A DNA stretch of 21,845 nucleotides from a virus. A program made the position numbers and the translations under genes. The stretch spans positions 1-21,845 of the IMG/VR virus record IMGVR_UViG_3300046742_000080, one strand, 5' to 3'. Below, in pieces: positions 5,000 to 20,977 of this stretch (within the stretch, counting starts at the first letter, position 1; each line of letters starts with the position of its first letter). The notes under the pieces are model-generated. The model did no database searches. It worked only from the letters and a program-made list of their open reading frames with translations, and had not been told where the DNA came from.

Positions 5000-7483
5000 A
5001 TGACATCTTCTTATCAAGGATTAGCTGGCAACCGTAGCGCTGGTGCAGACCCTACTGCTGACTTCCTGCCTGCTCAACAGCAAGCTAATCAAAAACTAAA
5101 ACAAGATATTGATCGATTTAATCAATCGGTCAATGCTAACGATGCAGCTCGTATGGAAAATGCCAAACGGGCTGGTGATACCGCTAGAGCAATAGGTGAA
5201 CTTTCTGCTACTGCAGCAAAAGTCCTTGGTGGTATCCAAGCTGAGCGTATTAAAAAGTTTCAATCTGAAGGTCAGGCGCTTGCCGCTGCAGGTATCACTG
5301 ATCAAGAAAAACTTTTAGAGGCTCAAGAGAAATACGAGGCTGAACAGAAAAGGACTCAAGAACAGCTAGATGGAGTTGCTGATAAAGCAGCAAAAGATGG
5401 CAAGCCTTTTCACGTCCTGAATGGCATCAAAAAACTGAATGCCTATCACTTGGACGAGATCCAAAAGATTCAGATTGCGGACCTTGCAACTGTAGTTACC
5501 TCAGAGTTTCCTCAGTACTACGAAGACCAAGGTGGTGCCAGTATGTCACGTGCTGATCAAATGGCACTTCCTGGTCAGTTCCTAACTGACAACTACGAAA
5601 GGTTTTCTGGCTTTAATCCTGGGTTTGTCACTAAGTATGGTCTTCCTGCTCTAAACAAGTTTAGGGATGAACAACGTCAAAAGATTGACTTTCAGTGGAC
5701 TCAGACTACAAGTGCACAGACTTCTGACCGTGCCATTAACACATTGCTTGTAGACGGAAACATTGGCAATGCTGTCAATTCTCTTTCTACCACTGTTGAC
5801 TCTAAAGGCAACGTACGTGGTCCTGCTGCAGCTTATAAGTATCTCGTAGAAACTGTCCTGCCTAAGGCAATCAAAGCAAACCTTGTCAGCGTCACTGACG
5901 TGCAAGAGATGTTTGCTAAGAGTGAAATGCCTGGCATGAATGGCAAGACCTATGGCGACCTAAAAAAGATCGACATGAATACGTTGATCGAGACGGCAGA
6001 GGCTGACATCAACAGTGACTTTAGTCGTAGGGAAACAACAAGGAATAATGCTTTCATTGCAGAAGAAGAACAGTGGATGCAAACTACTGATCTTTCTACT
6101 TTGACTAACGATGAAATTGAACAACGTCAAAACCAGTTTATCCAGACATATGGCAAACGCAGCACAAAGCTAGATCAATACAAGCTTCACTTGTCTGTTG
6201 ACGCTGTCCAGCTCAAAGAAGCTGACAAAGCAGCACAACGTCTGATCGAAAGCAACAGCTTGACGACTGAACGTCTTCTGAAAATGCCGTGGCAAATTCA
6301 GCAACAGTATGGAGCTATCGCAGCAGCTACTGACAAAGTTGCTGGTGATAACTACAAAGTTCAGGAAGAAGCAGTTAAGGATGCTGTTGAAAAGAAAGCC
6401 AGTGTCACCCCTCTTGGTTCAAGAGATCCCAGTGTTGGTGTAGTTACTTCTATTTATCAAGCCAAGTTTCACGAGAATCTCCGTCAACAGCTTGAAGCAG
6501 GTAACCCTAATGCACTTAATGATGCATTGAGCATTACTCTTCAAGACTTTAATGCTTGGTCTGCTGATTCTGCAAACTTTAGCAATAACGGTTACAACGT
6601 CTTTGCTGACGCTGCTACCGCACAAAACCTGCAAGCCAATGCACGAGTAGAGCAAGAAAGAGTTAACAGCGTTATTCGTACTTACGGCGCTCGCTCTTTA
6701 GATCAAGTGGGTCTAGTTAACTCCACTGTTCTGCGTAACGACGCTGCAAACTTTGGACAACGGGGATTCAAACATCATCCTCAGATTCAACGTATCAGCC
6801 GGATATTGCAAGTAGATCCGATTACAGCTACTAATAAAATGATTGAAGCTTACAACTTAGCTAACCAGGCGCAAGGTAATCCTATTCCTTTAATTTCTTT
6901 GTCTCCTGCTGCTGAGGCTATTAAAGATGATCTCCCTCCACAAGCTAAGGCTAAGTTCCTTAGCAACCAAGGACAGATGACACCTAATGTTTCTCTGCAG
7001 GTGATGTCGCAGCTTCCTGGTGACTACCGTCCTGAGATGGTGCCTAGTGGTTATGGCGATCTTGTCGCTAAAGCTGCTCAGCAATACGACATTCCTCCTG
7101 CCATTTTGGCTGGCTTGCTTGAGCAAGAAAGTGGTTATCTGCCTGAAGTAATTAAAGGTAAGCGGCTTAGTCGTTCTGGTGCGATCGGTATTGCTCAGTT
7201 CCTACCAGGCACTGCTGAACAAATGGGAGTTGATCCGGTTAACCCCGAGTCTGCGATCCCTGGTGCTGCTAAATACCTTCGACACCTTATGGATAATTAT
7301 GGGTTCGACCTTCGTACAGCAATCTATGCTTACAACGCTGGACCTGGAACAGTTCAACGCTACGGCGTAGGTGCTACTGAAGAAAACAAAAATTACTACC
7401 CTGGCATCATCAAAAGAGCTGCCAAGTATGGATATAAAGCTGCCTTCCGTGACCCGTCAATGATGCGTCCTGTCTTTCAATAA
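5000..7483 (+). CDS. 15: Internal virion protein C (gp15-like) with C-terminal lytic transglycosylase domain
   Basis: 827 residues; T7 gp15 has about 747. Residues 1 to about 680 are a mostly helical, Gln/Ala/Lys-rich core protein with coiled-coil-like stretches, as expected of gp15, which lines the ejection channel in the periplasm. The last 150 residues are an SLT-type (soluble lytic transglycosylase) domain: the catalytic glutamate is E710 in LLEQESGY, followed by GAIGIAQFLPGTA (from G727) and AYNAGPG (777-783), the three standard motifs. This domain cuts peptidoglycan so that the channel can pass the wall. In T7 the same activity is at the N-terminus of gp16, and the gp16 here lacks it. 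The gene follows gene 14 by two bases and precedes gene 16 by six; neither start has a Shine-Dalgarno sequence. Confidence 0.9.
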   Translation: MTSSYQGLAGNRSAGADPTADFLPAQQQANQKLKQDIDRFNQSVNANDAARMENAKRAGDTARAIGELSATAAKVLGGIQAERIKKFQSEGQALAAAGITDQEKLLEAQEKYEAEQKRTQEQLDGVADKAAKDGKPFHVLNGIKKLNAYHLDEIQKIQIADLATVVTSEFPQYYEDQGGASMSRADQMALPGQFLTDNYERFSGFNPGFVTKYGLPALNKFRDEQRQKIDFQWTQTTSAQTSDRAINTLLVDGNIGNAVNSLSTTVDSKGNVRGPAAAYKYLVETVLPKAIKANLVSVTDVQEMFAKSEMPGMNGKTYGDLKKIDMNTLIETAEADINSDFSRRETTRNNAFIAEEEQWMQTTDLSTLTNDEIEQRQNQFIQTYGKRSTKLDQYKLHLSVDAVQLKEADKAAQRLIESNSLTTERLLKMPWQIQQQYGAIAAATDKVAGDNYKVQEEAVKDAVEKKASVTPLGSRDPSVGVVTSIYQAKFHENLRQQLEAGNPNALNDALSITLQDFNAWSADSANFSNNGYNVFADAATAQNLQANARVEQERVNSVIRTYGARSLDQVGLVNSTVLRNDAANFGQRGFKHHPQIQRISRILQVDPITATNKMIEAYNLANQAQGNPIPLISLSPAAEAIKDDLPPQAKAKFLSNQGQMTPNVSLQVMSQLPGDYRPEMVPSGYGDLVAKAAQQYDIPPAILAGLLEQESGYLPEVIKGKRLSRSGAIGIAQFLPGTAEQMGVDPVNPESAIPGAAKYLRHLMDNYGFDLRTAIYAYNAGPGTVQRYGVGATEENKNYYPGIIKRAAKYGYKAAFRDPSMMRPVFQ

Positions 7484-18045: not shown

Positions 18046-18567
18046 ATGTTACAACTTAATGGTAAGACCCTGCAATACGACAGGGCATTTGTTCATGACG
18101 GGATGCAATATCCCGCTAATTGGCTGCGCTTGACCTCTTTGGAGGAGAAGCAAGCCATTGGTATCGTTGAAGTCTCGGCGACCCCTGCGGCCTCTTGGGA
18201 CCAGCGTTTCTACTGGGGTGTTGATAACCCCAAAGATCTCGACCAACTCAAAGAAACCTGGACTGCAAAGGTCAAGGAAACCGCAAGCTCCCTGATTACA
18301 CCTACCGACTGGTATGTCGTTCGTCAGGCTGAGAACAGTGCTGCTGTCCCTGCTGAGGTGCTCTCCCGTCGTGGTGAGATCCGCACGTTGAGCGGTGAGA
18401 AAGAAACTGCTATCGCTGCCTGTGCAGACGTTGCAGCCCTTGCTGAGTACGTGACTGGTTCTGAGTACAGCCGGTGGGAACCACTGCCGGAACCTGAGCC
18501 GGAGCCTACGCCTGAGCCAGAACCTACTCCAGAACCCACTCCCGAACCTACCCCCGCTGAAGAATGA
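18046..18567 (+). CDS. Small protein downstream of fibre genes, possible fibre-assembly factor, with PEPT tail
   Basis: 173 residues. The N-terminal part (QYPANWLRLTSLEEKQAIGI, then WDQRFYWGVDN) and the middle (TPTDWYVVRQAE, VLSRRGEIRTL) look like the small proteins that follow fibre genes in cyanophages and resemble tail-fibre assembly proteins of the DUF4376 kind. Residues about 146-173 are a low-complexity tail of PEPEP/TPEP repeats, probably extended and unfolded. It lies 13 bases after the 1072-residue gene, and its stop overlaps the next start in ATGA. A chaperone role for the fibre is inference from position and resemblance only; it could equally be a virion decoration. Confidence 0.65.
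   Translation: MLQLNGKTLQYDRAFVHDGMQYPANWLRLTSLEEKQAIGIVEVSATPAASWDQRFYWGVDNPKDLDQLKETWTAKVKETASSLITPTDWYVVRQAENSAAVPAEVLSRRGEIRTLSGEKETAIAACADVAALAEYVTGSEYSRWEPLPEPEPEPTPEPEPTPEPTPEPTPAEE
18481..18564 (+). repeat. Pro-Glu-Thr repeat tract (PEP/TPEP)
   Basis: Degenerate 6- and 12-base repeats of the CCT-GAG-CCG / ACT-CCA-GAA type encode alternating Pro-Glu and Thr-Pro-Glu-Pro units at the end of the 173-residue protein. The last units (CCAGAACCCACT, CCCGAACCTACC) differ only at third positions. Such tracts vary easily in length by slippage. Confidence 0.85.
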
Positions 18568-18731
18568 TCGCCCTTATCCGTCCACTTCTGTTTTCGTTTA
18601 TCAACTCAGACAAAGTCAAGCGTTTGATTGTTGACTTGCTTACCAAATTGGCTGAGCAAACAGACAACTCTGTAGACGACGAAGCCGTCAAGTTTATCGA
18701 ACGCGGCTTGTTCGGTGGACCAGTGGCCTGA
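18564..18731 (+). CDS. 55-residue conserved-type cyanophage protein of unknown function
   Basis: A small gene of 55 residues beginning with ATG inside the ATGA stop/start overlap with the previous gene and ending TGA at 18729-18731. The protein begins MIALIRPLLFSFINSDKVKR, with a helix continuing LIVDLLTKLAEQTDN and an acidic then aromatic end. It is probably an amphipathic, helical peptide; the first 14 residues are hydrophobic enough to touch a membrane but too short to be a sure transmembrane segment. I recall similar small proteins in cyanophages, all without known function. Support for it being real: perfect fit into the gap between neighbours, ATGA coupling at one end, a 17-base overlap with the next gene at the other, and no alternative gene here. 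Confidence 0.72.
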   Translation: MIALIRPLLFSFINSDKVKRLIVDLLTKLAEQTDNSVDDEAVKFIERGLFGGPVA

Positions 18732-19146
18732 GCCCCCGTCATTTCCCTCTCTAACGCTTCCAGAAGCGCCTGGAATGCCTGCGCCGGTCCTAGAAATACC
18801 AAGGGCTAACATCCCTAGTTACAAGCCCCTTGTAGTCCCTCCTAGCGACCTGCGTCCACCTCCAGGTATCAGAGGAAATAACGAAGATAAACAGCCAGAC
18901 AAGGCTCAATCAAAAGCTAAACCACCTCAACCAAAAGAGGTGCAAATGATTGACGTGCCATTTACGGATGTAGAAGTCCCAATGCCGTCAACCGAAATAA
19001 TGACTGCAGCAGCTACAACAGCTTTTATTTCTGTAGCTGCCACCCTTACTGCTACATCTCTTTTTAAATACCTTGTAATGGTAATGAAGCCCCTACTTAA
19101 GCAGGCATGGAGCAAATTAACAAAGAAGAAAAAAAACCCTTCTTAA
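18715..19146 (+). CDS. Proline-rich protein with one C-terminal membrane segment
   Basis: 143 residues from a GTG at 18715 (MDQWPEPPSFPSLTLPEAPG). Residues 1-75 are rich in Pro and probably extended; then comes a hydrophilic Gln/Lys linker and a motif, FTDVEVPMPSTEIMTAAATT. Residues about 97-118 are a hydrophobic helix (AFISVAATLTATSLFKYLVM), followed by a very basic tail ending KKKKNPS. The positive-inside rule suggests the tail is cytoplasmic and the Pro-rich part periplasmic. I recall similar proteins beside cyanophage tail and lysis genes, without function. It overlaps the 55-residue gene by 17 bases and the holin-like gene by 40. A slippery heptamer lies nine bases before the end of its coding frame (see separate entry). 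Confidence 0.75.
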   Translation: MDQWPEPPSFPSLTLPEAPGMPAPVLEIPRANIPSYKPLVVPPSDLRPPPGIRGNNEDKQPDKAQSKAKPPQPKEVQMIDVPFTDVEVPMPSTEIMTAAATTAFISVAATLTATSLFKYLVMVMKPLLKQAWSKLTKKKKNPS

Positions 19147-19397
19147 AAAAGGTAAAAGAACACGCAGAAAAGGATATTGAAATCCTTGGGACTTTCGTTC
19201 GCCTTGGTGTTGTGGTTTGGAGTGGTTTTATTATCACTCTTAACTACGTAGATATTCCTATGATTAAAAAAGGTCAAAGTGGTGGCGACATTACTTTTGT
19301 AGCTAGTGTCTTTACAGGCGCTTTGGCTACTTTTGGCCTAAATACTTCTAATAATAGATCTAAACCCGACGACGATTTAAAGAAAAAAGACCCATGA
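19107..19397 (+). CDS. Holin-like protein, two transmembrane segments
   Basis: 96 residues. A basic, charged N-terminal 25 residues (MEQINKEEKKPFLKKVKE) precede a first membrane helix, about 27-47 (FVRLGVVVWSGFIITLNYV), a short Lys/Gly loop and a second, about 61-79 (ITFVASVFTGALATFGLNT), then a charged tail KPDDDLKKKDP. Small size, two helices and charged ends fit a class II holin, which makes the inner-membrane lesion that times lysis. T7 gp17.5 is of this type and lies in the same place, between gene 17 and gene 18. Its start lies inside the previous gene and its stop overlaps the next start in ATGA. Other small membrane roles cannot be excluded. Confidence 0.68.
   Translation: MEQINKEEKKPFLKKVKEHAEKDIEILGTFVRLGVVVWSGFIITLNYVDIPMIKKGQSGGDITFVASVFTGALATFGLNTSNNRSKPDDDLKKKDP
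19131..19137 (+). other. Candidate -1 ribosomal frameshift heptamer A AAA AAC
   Basis: In the frame of the Pro-rich membrane gene the bases read A AAA AAC, the X XXY YYZ form of a -1 slippery site, within a run of eight A (19129-19136). The -1 frame is exactly that of the holin-like gene. A slip would give a 227-residue fusion: 141 residues of the first protein joined to holin residue 11 onward. Only a weak hairpin follows (CCTT with AAGG) and no well-spaced upstream Shine-Dalgarno is seen, so this is a candidate only. Confidence 0.35.
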
Positions 19398-19744
19398 AGA
19401 AACTACTAATTCTTTTGTTTTTGGCTGCACCTGCTGCTGCCCAGCAAGTAACCCCTAACTTTACTCAGGGGTCCATGCAATCAACCACTACTACCACCGT
19501 CGATATTGATCGCACTATCGAAACAAATATCTATGGTGGCGATTATCAATCATGGAGCGGAACAAACGTCACCCCCAGCGGGGATATTTTGGATTCTGCT
19601 ACGACTTATTCCGTAACTACTGCAGGAGAACAGTTTCAACTAGAGATTGTAGATCGCACAGCGGGAGTCGTAGAGAACATCGTCATCGACGAGGTTATCC
19701 AACAGCAATCCACCACTACCTCGCTATCAGTCTTCTCTCAGTAA
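19394..19744 (+). CDS. Small exported protein, unknown function
   Basis: 116 residues with a clear Sec signal peptide, MKKLLILLFLAAPAAA, cleaved probably before QQ at about residue 17. The mature part is about 100 residues, rich in Thr, Ser, Gln and Val, without cysteine, with SMQSTTTTTVDID and a QQQSTTTSLSVFSQ end, and likely beta-structured. Its start overlaps the holin-like gene stop in ATGA; a purine-rich AAAGAAAAAAGA stretch just upstream may help ribosome binding. It would act in the periplasm or outer membrane of the host. It is not a lipoprotein (no Cys at the cleavage site), so a classical Rz1-type outer spanin is unlikely. I do not recognise the family beyond its presence in cyanophages. 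Confidence 0.7.
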   Translation: MKKLLILLFLAAPAAAQQVTPNFTQGSMQSTTTTTVDIDRTIETNIYGGDYQSWSGTNVTPSGDILDSATTYSVTTAGEQFQLEIVDRTAGVVENIVIDEVIQQQSTTTSLSVFSQ

Positions 19745-20226
19745 CGCCTGCGTTTGCAGCAGAAGATCCCACAGTCCATAACAGCTCTAATCCCGTAGCA
19801 GCAGCAACGGGCAATGTGACTAATCAGGCGGTGCAGTTCCAAAACAATGGTGCACCGTCTCGTCAGTACTTTGCCAATAACGTCAGTTGTAACGGGGCTA
19901 CAATGCAGCTTAGCCCGTTTTATATGGGTAACGACACTATCCCACAAGAATCAACGGGATATGTCCGCAACAATAACTTTGGTATGCAGCTCAACTTTAG
20001 TGTTCCGCTTGACGGAAGCATGATTGAGCTTTGCAAAAGCATCGCTAGAAAACACGAACAGAAACTACGTCTTGATTACGAACTTGTTCGTGCTCTTAAA
20101 TGTACGGAAATCATGAAAGCTGGGTTTATGTTTAGACCTGGCAGTCGTGTTGAAGTTCTTTGTCATGACGTAATACCAATAGTGGCTAATGACAAAAAAG
20201 AAAGCGACGGAGGATCAGTTCAATGA
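19708..20226 (+). CDS. Exported four-cysteine protein with apparent non-standard start
   Basis: 172 residues if started at ATC 19708. The first 20 residues read as a signal peptide (HHYLAISLLSVTPAFAA) with cleavage before EDP. The mature domain resembles secreted cyanophage proteins I recall (NPVAAATGNVTNQAVQFQNN, then YELVRALKC and FRPGSRVEVLC) and has four Cys (VSCNG, ELCKS, LKCTE, VLCHD), fitting two periplasmic disulfides. No ATG, GTG, TTG or CTG lies in frame between 19555 and the signal peptide. The ATG at 19552 would add 52 arginine-rich residues that are merely the shifted reading of the preceding gene, and the GTG at 19816 would remove the signal. A GAGG at 19691-19694 lies 13 bases before the ATC. 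The end overlaps the small terminase start by 38 bases. Confidence 0.72.
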   Translation: MHHYLAISLLSVTPAFAAEDPTVHNSSNPVAAATGNVTNQAVQFQNNGAPSRQYFANNVSCNGATMQLSPFYMGNDTIPQESTGYVRNNNFGMQLNFSVPLDGSMIELCKSIARKHEQKLRLDYELVRALKCTEIMKAGFMFRPGSRVEVLCHDVIPIVANDKKESDGGSVQ

Positions 20227-20437
20227 ACTGCATAACCTCGTCACTAAGGAGTTCTTAGCCCGTATCAAATCGGGTGAAGCGACAACTCAAGACTTAAAAG
20301 CAGCGTGTGATTGGCTAAAGACTAACGACATCAGTGGTGTTGCTTATGACGGCAACCCCTTGTCGAAACTTGCCAATGTCATGCCTGAAATAGACCCAGA
20401 AATGGTACAGCGGAGGCTTTATGGAAAAGCGCTTTAG
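20189..20437 (+). CDS. 18: Small terminase subunit (T7 gp18-like, DNA maturase A)
   Basis: 82 residues (T7 gp18: 89). The sequence (MTKKKATEDQFNELHNLVTK, then IKSGEATTQDLKAACDWLK and NPLSKLANVMPEIDPEMVQR) matches the small terminase subunits I recall from T7-like cyanophages: a short helical protein with a Thr-Gln-Asp-Leu turn, a Trp-containing helix and an acidic C-terminal part. It recognises concatemer DNA and regulates the large subunit during packaging. Start: ATG inside the preceding secreted gene; no Shine-Dalgarno sequence. The large subunit (gene 19) is not in the window, although in T7 it follows closely; here HNH-type genes and a terminator intervene. Confidence 0.78.
   Translation: MTKKKATEDQFNELHNLVTKEFLARIKSGEATTQDLKAACDWLKTNDISGVAYDGNPLSKLANVMPEIDPEMVQRRLYGKAL
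20412..20416 (+). promoter_or_regulatory. Shine-Dalgarno GGAGG before the basic-protein gene
   Basis: GGAGG ends four bases before ATG 20421. It is the only good ribosome binding site at any start in this window, where the other genes depend on overlaps or A/T-rich contexts. It lies inside the 3' end of the small terminase gene and fixes the start of the 76-residue protein. Confidence 0.8.
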
Positions 20438-20651
20438 CGGTCCTAAATATAAAAACGGGAATCACAAATCCCAACAAAAGGCATACAACAGAACACCAAA
20501 GGGTAAAGCACTGCGTGTAAACGCAAATCGACTACGCCGTCAACTGAAGATCCGCAAAGGCGATCCACGTGATGCTGCTCACTACAAAGGCAGCACTACA
20601 AAAGGACGACCTCAAGCGAGATCGAAAAACAGAGCTAGCCGTACTAAATGA
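20421..20651 (+). CDS. Small very basic protein, possible degenerate HNH-type
   Basis: 76 residues with about a third Lys, Arg or His, so it must bind nucleic acid or acidic protein. The region RKGDPRDAAHYKG followed by SKNRASR (D51, H54, N70) recalls small phage HNH-like proteins with a 'KGDGKDVDH...S.NR' pattern, but the first catalytic pair Asp-His is Ala-His here, so activity is doubtful. Residues 1-45 (KYKNGNHKSQQKAYNRTPKG) are disordered-looking. The start has the only strong Shine-Dalgarno in the region; it overlaps the small terminase by 17 bases and the next gene by ATGA. Possible roles are a DNA-condensing virion protein or a packaging accessory; neither is proven by the sequence. 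Confidence 0.62.
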   Translation: MEKRFSGPKYKNGNHKSQQKAYNRTPKGKALRVNANRLRRQLKIRKGDPRDAAHYKGSTTKGRPQARSKNRASRTK

Positions 20652-20977
20652 CCCCTTTACTTCCAACTCCTGATCACTACCTATACAACCTAATAACCAT
20701 GACGTCTCCTGAAGCTAAGCGCCTTTGGAGGCGCAGCATCAAAGAACACTTCGGATGCACATGTGTTTATTGCGGAATTACTTATGAATTACATGAACTC
20801 ACTCTTGATCACGTACATCCTCGCAGTCTTGGGGGTGAAGACATTTCATCGAATGTCGTACCAGCGTGTACCTGTTGTAATCAGGACAAAGGAAGTAACC
20901 ACTGGCGCTCTTGGATGAGAGCCCGTTTTGGAATGAATTTACTTAGGGAAGGATTGATTCTTTCCCACATCTCATAA
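20648..20977 (+). CDS. HNH endonuclease, small, zinc-binding
   Basis: 109 residues. The motif set is complete: CVYC (C39, C42), LDHVHP (D54, H55) with RSLGG, N69, then CTCC (C74, C77) and CNQDK (N78, K81). The two CxxC pairs hold a structural zinc and His55/Asn69/Asn78 form the beta-beta-alpha metal site, so nicking or cutting of DNA is expected. The start is ATG in the ATGA overlap with the previous gene; ATG 20699 (MTSPEAKRLW) is an alternative start that keeps the whole domain. Lying just after the small terminase, it may aid packaging, as HNH proteins next to terminases do in some other phages, or it may be a free-standing homing-type enzyme. A terminator follows. Confidence 0.9.
   Translation: MTPLLPTPDHYLYNLITMTSPEAKRLWRRSIKEHFGCTCVYCGITYELHELTLDHVHPRSLGGEDISSNVVPACTCCNQDKGSNHWRSWMRARFGMNLLREGLILSHIS

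Follow-up and report, generated by a model that had tools for sequence, protein, structure and literature searches.

A cassette with overlapping genes for two exported proteins, a candidate for outer-membrane breakage, in marine cyanophages

The P-H-A-B cassette and its products

The window analysed here, the whole 21,845-base stretch of one IMG/VR virus record, belongs to a T7-like cyanophage whose nearest annotated relatives are S-TIP37, S-RIP2, KBS-P-1A, and S-SBP1. After the fibre genes, four genes designated P, H, A, and B follow one another in that order and lead into the small terminase gene (Table 1), whose assignment in the preliminary description is confirmed by profile matches (PF11123, 2e-19; phrog_891, 4.2e-25). 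The only peptidoglycan hydrolase seen in the window is a transglycosylase-like C-terminal domain in an 827-aa protein at 5000-7483. Several other features flank the cassette. A 55-aa gene (phrog_2738, 18564-18731) precedes P; this gene is mobile around the cassette, lying downstream of B in Prochlorococcus-type loci and, in Syn5, after a gene termed Z. A very Lys/Arg-rich 76-aa protein is encoded at 20421-20651, with the small terminase on one side and an HNH endonuclease gene (20648-20977) on the other. The contig ends (21790-21845) within a short repeat coding Asn-Gly units (GGGAACGG), which is probably the point where assembly broke off.

Table 1. Features of the cassette. Positions are those of the window except for X and Z; L with a number denotes a locus.
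Feature	Position	Strand	Description
P	18715-19146	+	143 aa, GTG start; phrog_9426
H	19107-19397	+	96 aa; DUF6450 (PF20048), phrog_2714
A	19394-19744	+	116 aa; phrog_650
A signal peptide	19394-19441	+	
Mature A	19442-19741	+	no Cys
B	19552-20226	+	224 aa from ATG 19552; phrog_1755, phrog_848
B long basic n-region	19552-19710	+	overlaps A; open frame kept, sequence not conserved
B signal core and predicted leader-peptidase site (HHYLAISLLSVTPAFA)	19711-19758	+	over the last codons and stop of A
Mature B	19759-20223	+	four Cys
Small terminase	20189-20437	+	38-nt overlap with the end of B; right-hand border of the cassette
X	Syn9 gp167 = L257:4013-4516; L005:2097-2603		exported, A-like
Z in S-TIP37	40203-40457 (L003:2934-3188)		intact 84-aa ORF, overlaps the end of B

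A distinctive feature of A and B is that both are exported and that their genes overlap in different frames. The preliminary description had said as much, and had noted that A is free of Cys and that mature B has four; the two open reading frames, the export signals, and the Cys pattern all hold in the window, and the signals recur in relatives. The signal peptide of A in the window is MKKLLILLFLAAPAAA, and the next residue is Q. Among the 188 parsable A sequences, an AxA-type site precedes the mature part in 181, and neither a lipobox nor a Cys occurs in any. The secretion signal of B is internal: its core (HHYLAISLLSVTPAFA, then AEDP) comes after some 50 residues that are hydrophilic and mostly basic. 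The B motif was placed at 227 loci (8 reference, 68 of 81 close, all 80 cyanomyovirus, 65 of 80 Prochlorococcus-podovirus type, and 6 of 7 genome-contig loci). A signal-like core with a small-x-small site is present in 226 of these B sequences; the mature part has four Cys in 201 and six in 26, and a lipobox-like string occurs in two, both from cyanomyoviruses.

None of the four proteins matches a family of known function. A matches phrog_650 (2.3e-33) over residues 5-116, reaching the last position of the profile, and scores 28.6 bits against Pfam DUF6322, under the family cut-off of 30.6; its homologue in Syn9 scores 137.5 bits. B matches phrog_1755 (2.3e-46) and phrog_848 (3.6e-42). Structure prediction of the two mature proteins singly, a check that the preliminary description had put forward, gives a beta-hairpin for A and a poor model for B. 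The AlphaFold2 model of mature A (34 sequences; pLDDT 84, pTM 0.41) is a long hairpin with strands at residues 9-31 and 74-97. Its matches in the PDB are weak (best Foldseek E 1.3e-3, best Z score 3.8) and are chiefly hairpin stems of ring-forming pores, plus some phage tail proteins. In-out alternation is suggestive in strand 1, where 2.4% of shuffles reach it, and absent from strand 2, where 91% do. The model of B (55 sequences; pLDDT 60, best Z score 3.4) consists of a beta-hairpin and a 35-residue helix. Sequence searches against solved structures returned nothing convincing, and most matches from the fold searches against viral models were to these same families.

P is Pro-rich over residues 1-93 (23 Pro), followed by a membrane helix at about 94-125 and a basic C-terminal tail, and its topology is probably N-out/C-in. 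It matches phrog_570 weakly (0.0053 for the window, 1.0e-4 for S-TIP37). H shows two hydrophobic segments by eye and belongs to DUF6450 (2.9e-30); in the libraries searched only DUF6450 and unnamed PHROGs match it, with no functional name. H is an unproven candidate holin, holin-like by size and place only.

The start of B and selection on the overlap

B overlaps A by 193 nt and lies in the -1 frame relative to it. Because the signal of B overwrites the conserved last codons of A and has no usual start codon nearby, several records (S-TIP37, KBS-P-1A, S-H38, and SS120-1) start B downstream of its signal. The start was compared at 88 loci, namely the window, 80 viral contigs, and seven of the eight reference phages (P-SCSP2 yielded no A stop). 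In most of them, an in-frame ATG recurs at one position, 68 codons ahead of mature B, across adjacent Ser and Trp codons of A. This Trp can be placed in 82 of the 88 loci, and the residue before it is Ser in 78 of these, encoded by TCA in 75 and by AGC in three. For comparison, the pool has 952 Ser codons, 251 of them TCA, and the part of A ahead of the overlap has 310, 148 of them TCA. ATG 19552 is very likely the start of B, and the overlap is very likely under selection. A rare start codon close to the signal core in the window was considered and dropped, since the conserved ATG of the relatives lies 68 codons upstream of the mature part. Shine-Dalgarno motifs were set aside as evidence for the start; all five window starts that were examined lack one, so the test is uninformative. 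In two relatives (L079 and L083), the ATG reads ATA because the Trp of A is Tyr there. The B frame is still open in both, and translation of B may begin at a near-cognate start or by another route.

Between the Trp and the end of A, 76 of the 82 loci have an open B frame, and none has an open third frame over the same stretch. When the amino acids of A are held fixed and its codons redrawn (synonymous resampling), the mean chance of an open frame is 0.001. A stricter comparison, in which each gene's own codons are shuffled, puts it at 0.063; as a control the shuffle is the weaker one because it retains codon choices that selection may have made. After clustering at 75% identity, the frame is open in 4 of 8 representatives against 0.02 expected. 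Of the six loci in which it is not open (L001, L006, L008, L022, L044, and L065), the ATG is missing from five, and each of the six has an ATG or GTG closer to the signal.

The overlap is graded, extending over about 25 codons in cyanomyoviruses, 63 in Synechococcus podoviruses, and nearly all or all of A in Prochlorococcus podoviruses. Among cyanomyovirus loci, 56 of 75 have a B frame without stops across roughly the final 25 codons of A (expected 4.3 by resampling, 37.9 by shuffling), and none of 73 has one across the stretch before them. At the close loci, the two successive stretches from the Trp on are open in 62 of 63 and 63 of 63 (expected 1.2 and 2.9 by resampling, 16.3 and 30.2 by shuffling), and the stretch upstream of the Trp in 0 of 62. 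In the Prochlorococcus type, the frame is open throughout A, the upstream part being so in 47 of 51 loci (expected 1.8 by resampling, 23.3 by shuffling), and an ATG 8 nt past the ATG of A itself could serve as the start of B.

The properties of the encoded leader also depart from what coding for A would give. Hydropathy of the signal core is 1.67 at the close loci against 0.14 +/- 0.73 expected from coding A (higher in 64 of 64), and 1.84 in the Prochlorococcus type against 0.34 +/- 0.78 (higher in 55 of 55). Net charge of the n-region is 9.8 against 7.3 expected and 11.6 against 7.6 in the same two groups. Amino-acid conservation in the n-region was looked for without success: with the last ten codons of the overlap set aside, 54-67% of its B-frame residues differ. 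Third positions of A in the overlap are mostly about as free as elsewhere. The leader, with unconserved residues in an open and basic frame, therefore appears to be maintained as open and basic, not in sequence. The overlap series resembles successive stages of a gene whose start moves upstream within the neighbouring gene, and its gradation explains the late B starts in several records and hence the hidden export signal.

Carriers and range of the cassette

Among loci with at least 1.5 kb upstream, the order P-H-A-B on one strand is kept in 51 of 53 close loci and in 28 of 40 of the Prochlorococcus type; H is present in 52 of the 53 and in all of the 40. In cyanomyoviruses, the order is X-A-B, adjoining a phrog_570 gene with the plan of P (Pro-rich, membrane helix, basic tail), and this set has hsp20 and replication genes in its vicinity and is not next to known lysis genes. 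X (phrog_564) is an exported, A-like gene just upstream of A, and the A profile also weakly matches upstream of A in P-HM1 (1.3e-5) and P-SSM2 (2.3e-4); X may be a duplicated copy of A. In S-SM1, P, B, A, and X bear the numbers T4-GC 234-237, which are not named in the main text of the S-SM1 proteome paper. DUF6450-like (H) genes also occur 1-2.6 kb from B on the other strand in 31 of 80 cyanomyovirus loci, for example downstream of B on the minus strand in L155, L122, L145, L120, and L143.

Each family was also searched in a panel of 15 hand-picked cyanophage records and 14 control genomes. A, B, and H match the same nine records (P-SSP7, S-TIP37, Syn9, P-SSM2, P-SSM4, S-RSM4, S-SM1, P-HM1, and Syn19), and P, by phrog_570, matches eight of them. 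The exception is P-SSP7, in which the positional counterpart of P (PSSP7_042) has one predicted membrane region according to the record's own note. The link of P across phage families is weak by score, and also rests on the shared plan and place. None of A, B, H, and P was found in P60, Syn5, PSS2, S-PM2, Pf-WMP4, and S-CBS4, or in the 14 controls. The genes of the cassette are thus common to T7-like and T4-like marine cyanophages, and P, H, A, and B probably form a functional unit.

In a wider set of 50,697 phage records, two different queries detected B in 398 and 459. The names tallied for the B-carrying records are Synechococcus, Prochlorococcus, cyanophage, marine, uncultured, and Tiamatvirus. 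A scan of genome contigs gave seven matches, on marine metagenome or single-cell assembly contigs. Host homologues were considered as their source and rejected: of the six contigs analysed, five carry P and six carry H, and because they carry these genes too, the matches look like phage contigs. The search for taxonomic range and co-occurrence that the preliminary description had called for therefore returns cyanophages only, in the collections searched.

Proposed function, alternatives, and known systems

How marine cyanophages breach the outer membrane is the question on which the cassette bears. The available text of PMC6139136 reports no spanins in 20 phages of Prochlorococcus or Synechococcus, with the suggestion that the outer membrane is perhaps simply fragile, and proposes that spanins may have gone unrecognised among N-out/C-in membrane proteins and outer-membrane proteins. 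Eight of the nine carriers (P-SSP7, Syn9, P-SSM2, P-SSM4, S-RSM4, S-SM1, P-HM1, and Syn19) are listed there as spanin-less; the ninth, S-TIP37, is not in the list as available. The six non-carriers of the panel are likewise listed, so the cassette cannot be the only answer. The A/B cassette sits where lysis genes normally lie, which makes it a candidate for outer-membrane breakage in phages without the usual tool, and P-H-A-B is a concrete, testable candidate for this breach in the eight phages listed as spanin-less. In the literature searched, no paper was found that treats genes of the A or B family as lysis genes, and none for Syn9 gp165; its available text gives no gene-level expression timing for A or B.

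From the anatomy of A and B, which is well supported, we infer a function: P-H-A-B may break the host outer membrane at the end of infection, replacing spanins, a reading that we regard as plausible, if somewhat short of probable. H would open the inner membrane in a holin-like manner, and P would reside in that membrane with its Pro-rich arm across the periplasm. Sec and leader peptidase would release A and B into the periplasm, where A, predicted to be a long beta-hairpin, would assemble on or in the outer membrane and disulfide-bonded B would partner A, facing P. Together, the four proteins would rupture the outer membrane. The overlap would tie A to B and give B its long basic leader, free to drift as long as it stays open. 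A more specific picture can be drawn, of a spanin-independent machine for outer-membrane disruption common to marine T7-like and T4-like cyanophages, with P as a Pro-rich arm in the inner membrane, H as a small pore former, A as a beta-hairpin ring or pore former, B as a disulfide-bonded component, and dual-coding genes whose overlap grew stepwise to the point where the frame of B takes in nearly all of A in Prochlorococcus podoviruses; as a whole this picture is possible and somewhat more doubtful.

Several alternatives have to be weighed against outer-membrane breakage by the cassette. A and B could alter the envelope of the infected cell without a role in lysis, through a superinfection block, receptor masking, outer-membrane permeability, or the surface layer. 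That they are exported, limited to cyanophages in the collections searched, and present in two unrelated lineages would suit such a role, as would the location of the cyanomyovirus set near genes of host-takeover type such as hsp20 and away from a lysis cluster. We nevertheless consider it rather unlikely, since the podovirus set occupies the fibre-to-terminase slot, where P60 has its endolysin (phrog_181, 2.8e-31; the only match of this family among 17 records), and since A and B co-occur with the small membrane protein H. A and B could conceivably also be minor components of the virion, proteins associated with the tail fibres, or assembly factors that pass through the periplasm, for their genes come directly after the fibre genes and A weakly matches phage tail proteins (8egr_I, E 1.3e-3; Z score 2.7). 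Cleavable export signals on nearly all members would, however, take them away from assembly in the cytoplasm, and the set is common to T7-like and T4-like phages, whose virions differ; a virion role is improbable.

The remaining alternatives concern Z and the route to B. The preliminary description suggested that A and B may fill the spanin place by a different mechanism, or else modify the cyanobacterial outer membrane or S-layer. A co-inherited, envelope-directed set does occupy the fibre-to-terminase slot, and to that extent the spanin-place proposal stands; it is weakened by Z, a short protein of about 84 aa with a transmembrane segment plus a coiled coil, which lies after B or overlaps it in 48 of 68 close loci, so that an Rz-like candidate exists in sister phages. 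Z would then be the real spanin of the phage group and A and B merely its neighbours. Z is also found in P60, in the same slot as the endolysin, and in Syn5, both without A and B, and the P60 protein weakly matches a PHROG named Rz-like spanin (0.03). Yet Z is missing from the window, from L010-L017, from 65 of 65 Prochlorococcus-type loci, and from 80 of 80 cyanomyovirus loci, all of which keep A and B; no lipoprotein partner was found beside Z in S-TIP37; and its length would seem short for spanning the periplasm. It is accordingly quite improbable that Z is the real spanin of the group. The S-TIP37 record annotates no more than a 41-aa piece of Z (STIP37_48). A single clear lipobox-like start, LLLGC, which also has an AxA site, was found in that phage; it belongs to a gene at 18859-19203 (L284:1860-2204) just before psbA, far from the cassette. 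As to the route, ribosomes might enter B by a -1 frameshift out of A, producing an A-B fusion, instead of initiating at ATG 19552. The -1 frame of B and the open frame of L079 and L083 despite their ATA would allow this, but by eye no slippery heptamer is shared at the junction among nine phages, loci that have lost the ATG show stops ahead of a nearer start, the Ser codon that contributes to the ATG is conserved in its own right (TCA in 75 of 78), the frame upstream of the ATG is closed in 62 of 62 close loci, and in cyanomyoviruses B has a conserved ATG start, MDR. We regard frameshifting as very improbable.

The proposed action of P-H-A-B can be set beside several known systems. In shape only, the hairpin model of A resembles the stem given by each subunit of ring-forming beta-barrel pores (best Z score 3.8); with a Z score below 4, no sequence similarity, and no other shared domain, this is a common arrangement at most. 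The unimolecular spanin T1 gp11 is a parallel insofar as A or B may be a beta-rich periplasmic protein acting on the outer membrane; unlike gp11, A and B of the window have no N-terminal lipobox and no C-terminal membrane helix. Syn9 gp165 (phrog_848) and gp166 (phrog_650/DUF6322) and their cyanomyovirus homologues share with the window the families, the A-then-B order, and the overlapping frames. They differ from it in their shorter selected overlap, in the extra A-like X upstream, and in P being on the other side or the opposite strand.

T7 places its Rz/Rz1 spanins beside gene 18. Like the two-component spanins (lambda Rz/Rz1, T7 gp18.5/18.7), A and B are exported and encoded by adjacent, out-of-frame overlapping genes in the late region beside the small terminase. 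In contrast to Rz/Rz1, both have cleavable signals, and the overlap falls in the leader of B, not in its mature domain. The earlier remark that neither protein is Rz-shaped or a lipoprotein is sustained: neither A nor B of the window has a lipobox or an N-terminal anchor with a coiled coil. An Rz-type partner would be a type II protein with an N-terminal anchor and a periplasmic coiled coil, whereas A is predicted to be beta and B has an internal signal of the cleavable type. According to the available text of PMC6139136, two-component spanins are often mis-annotated because of gene overlap. Because the lipobox and the anchor with a coiled coil were looked for and not found, A and B stand outside the spanin families, though they may work like spanins.
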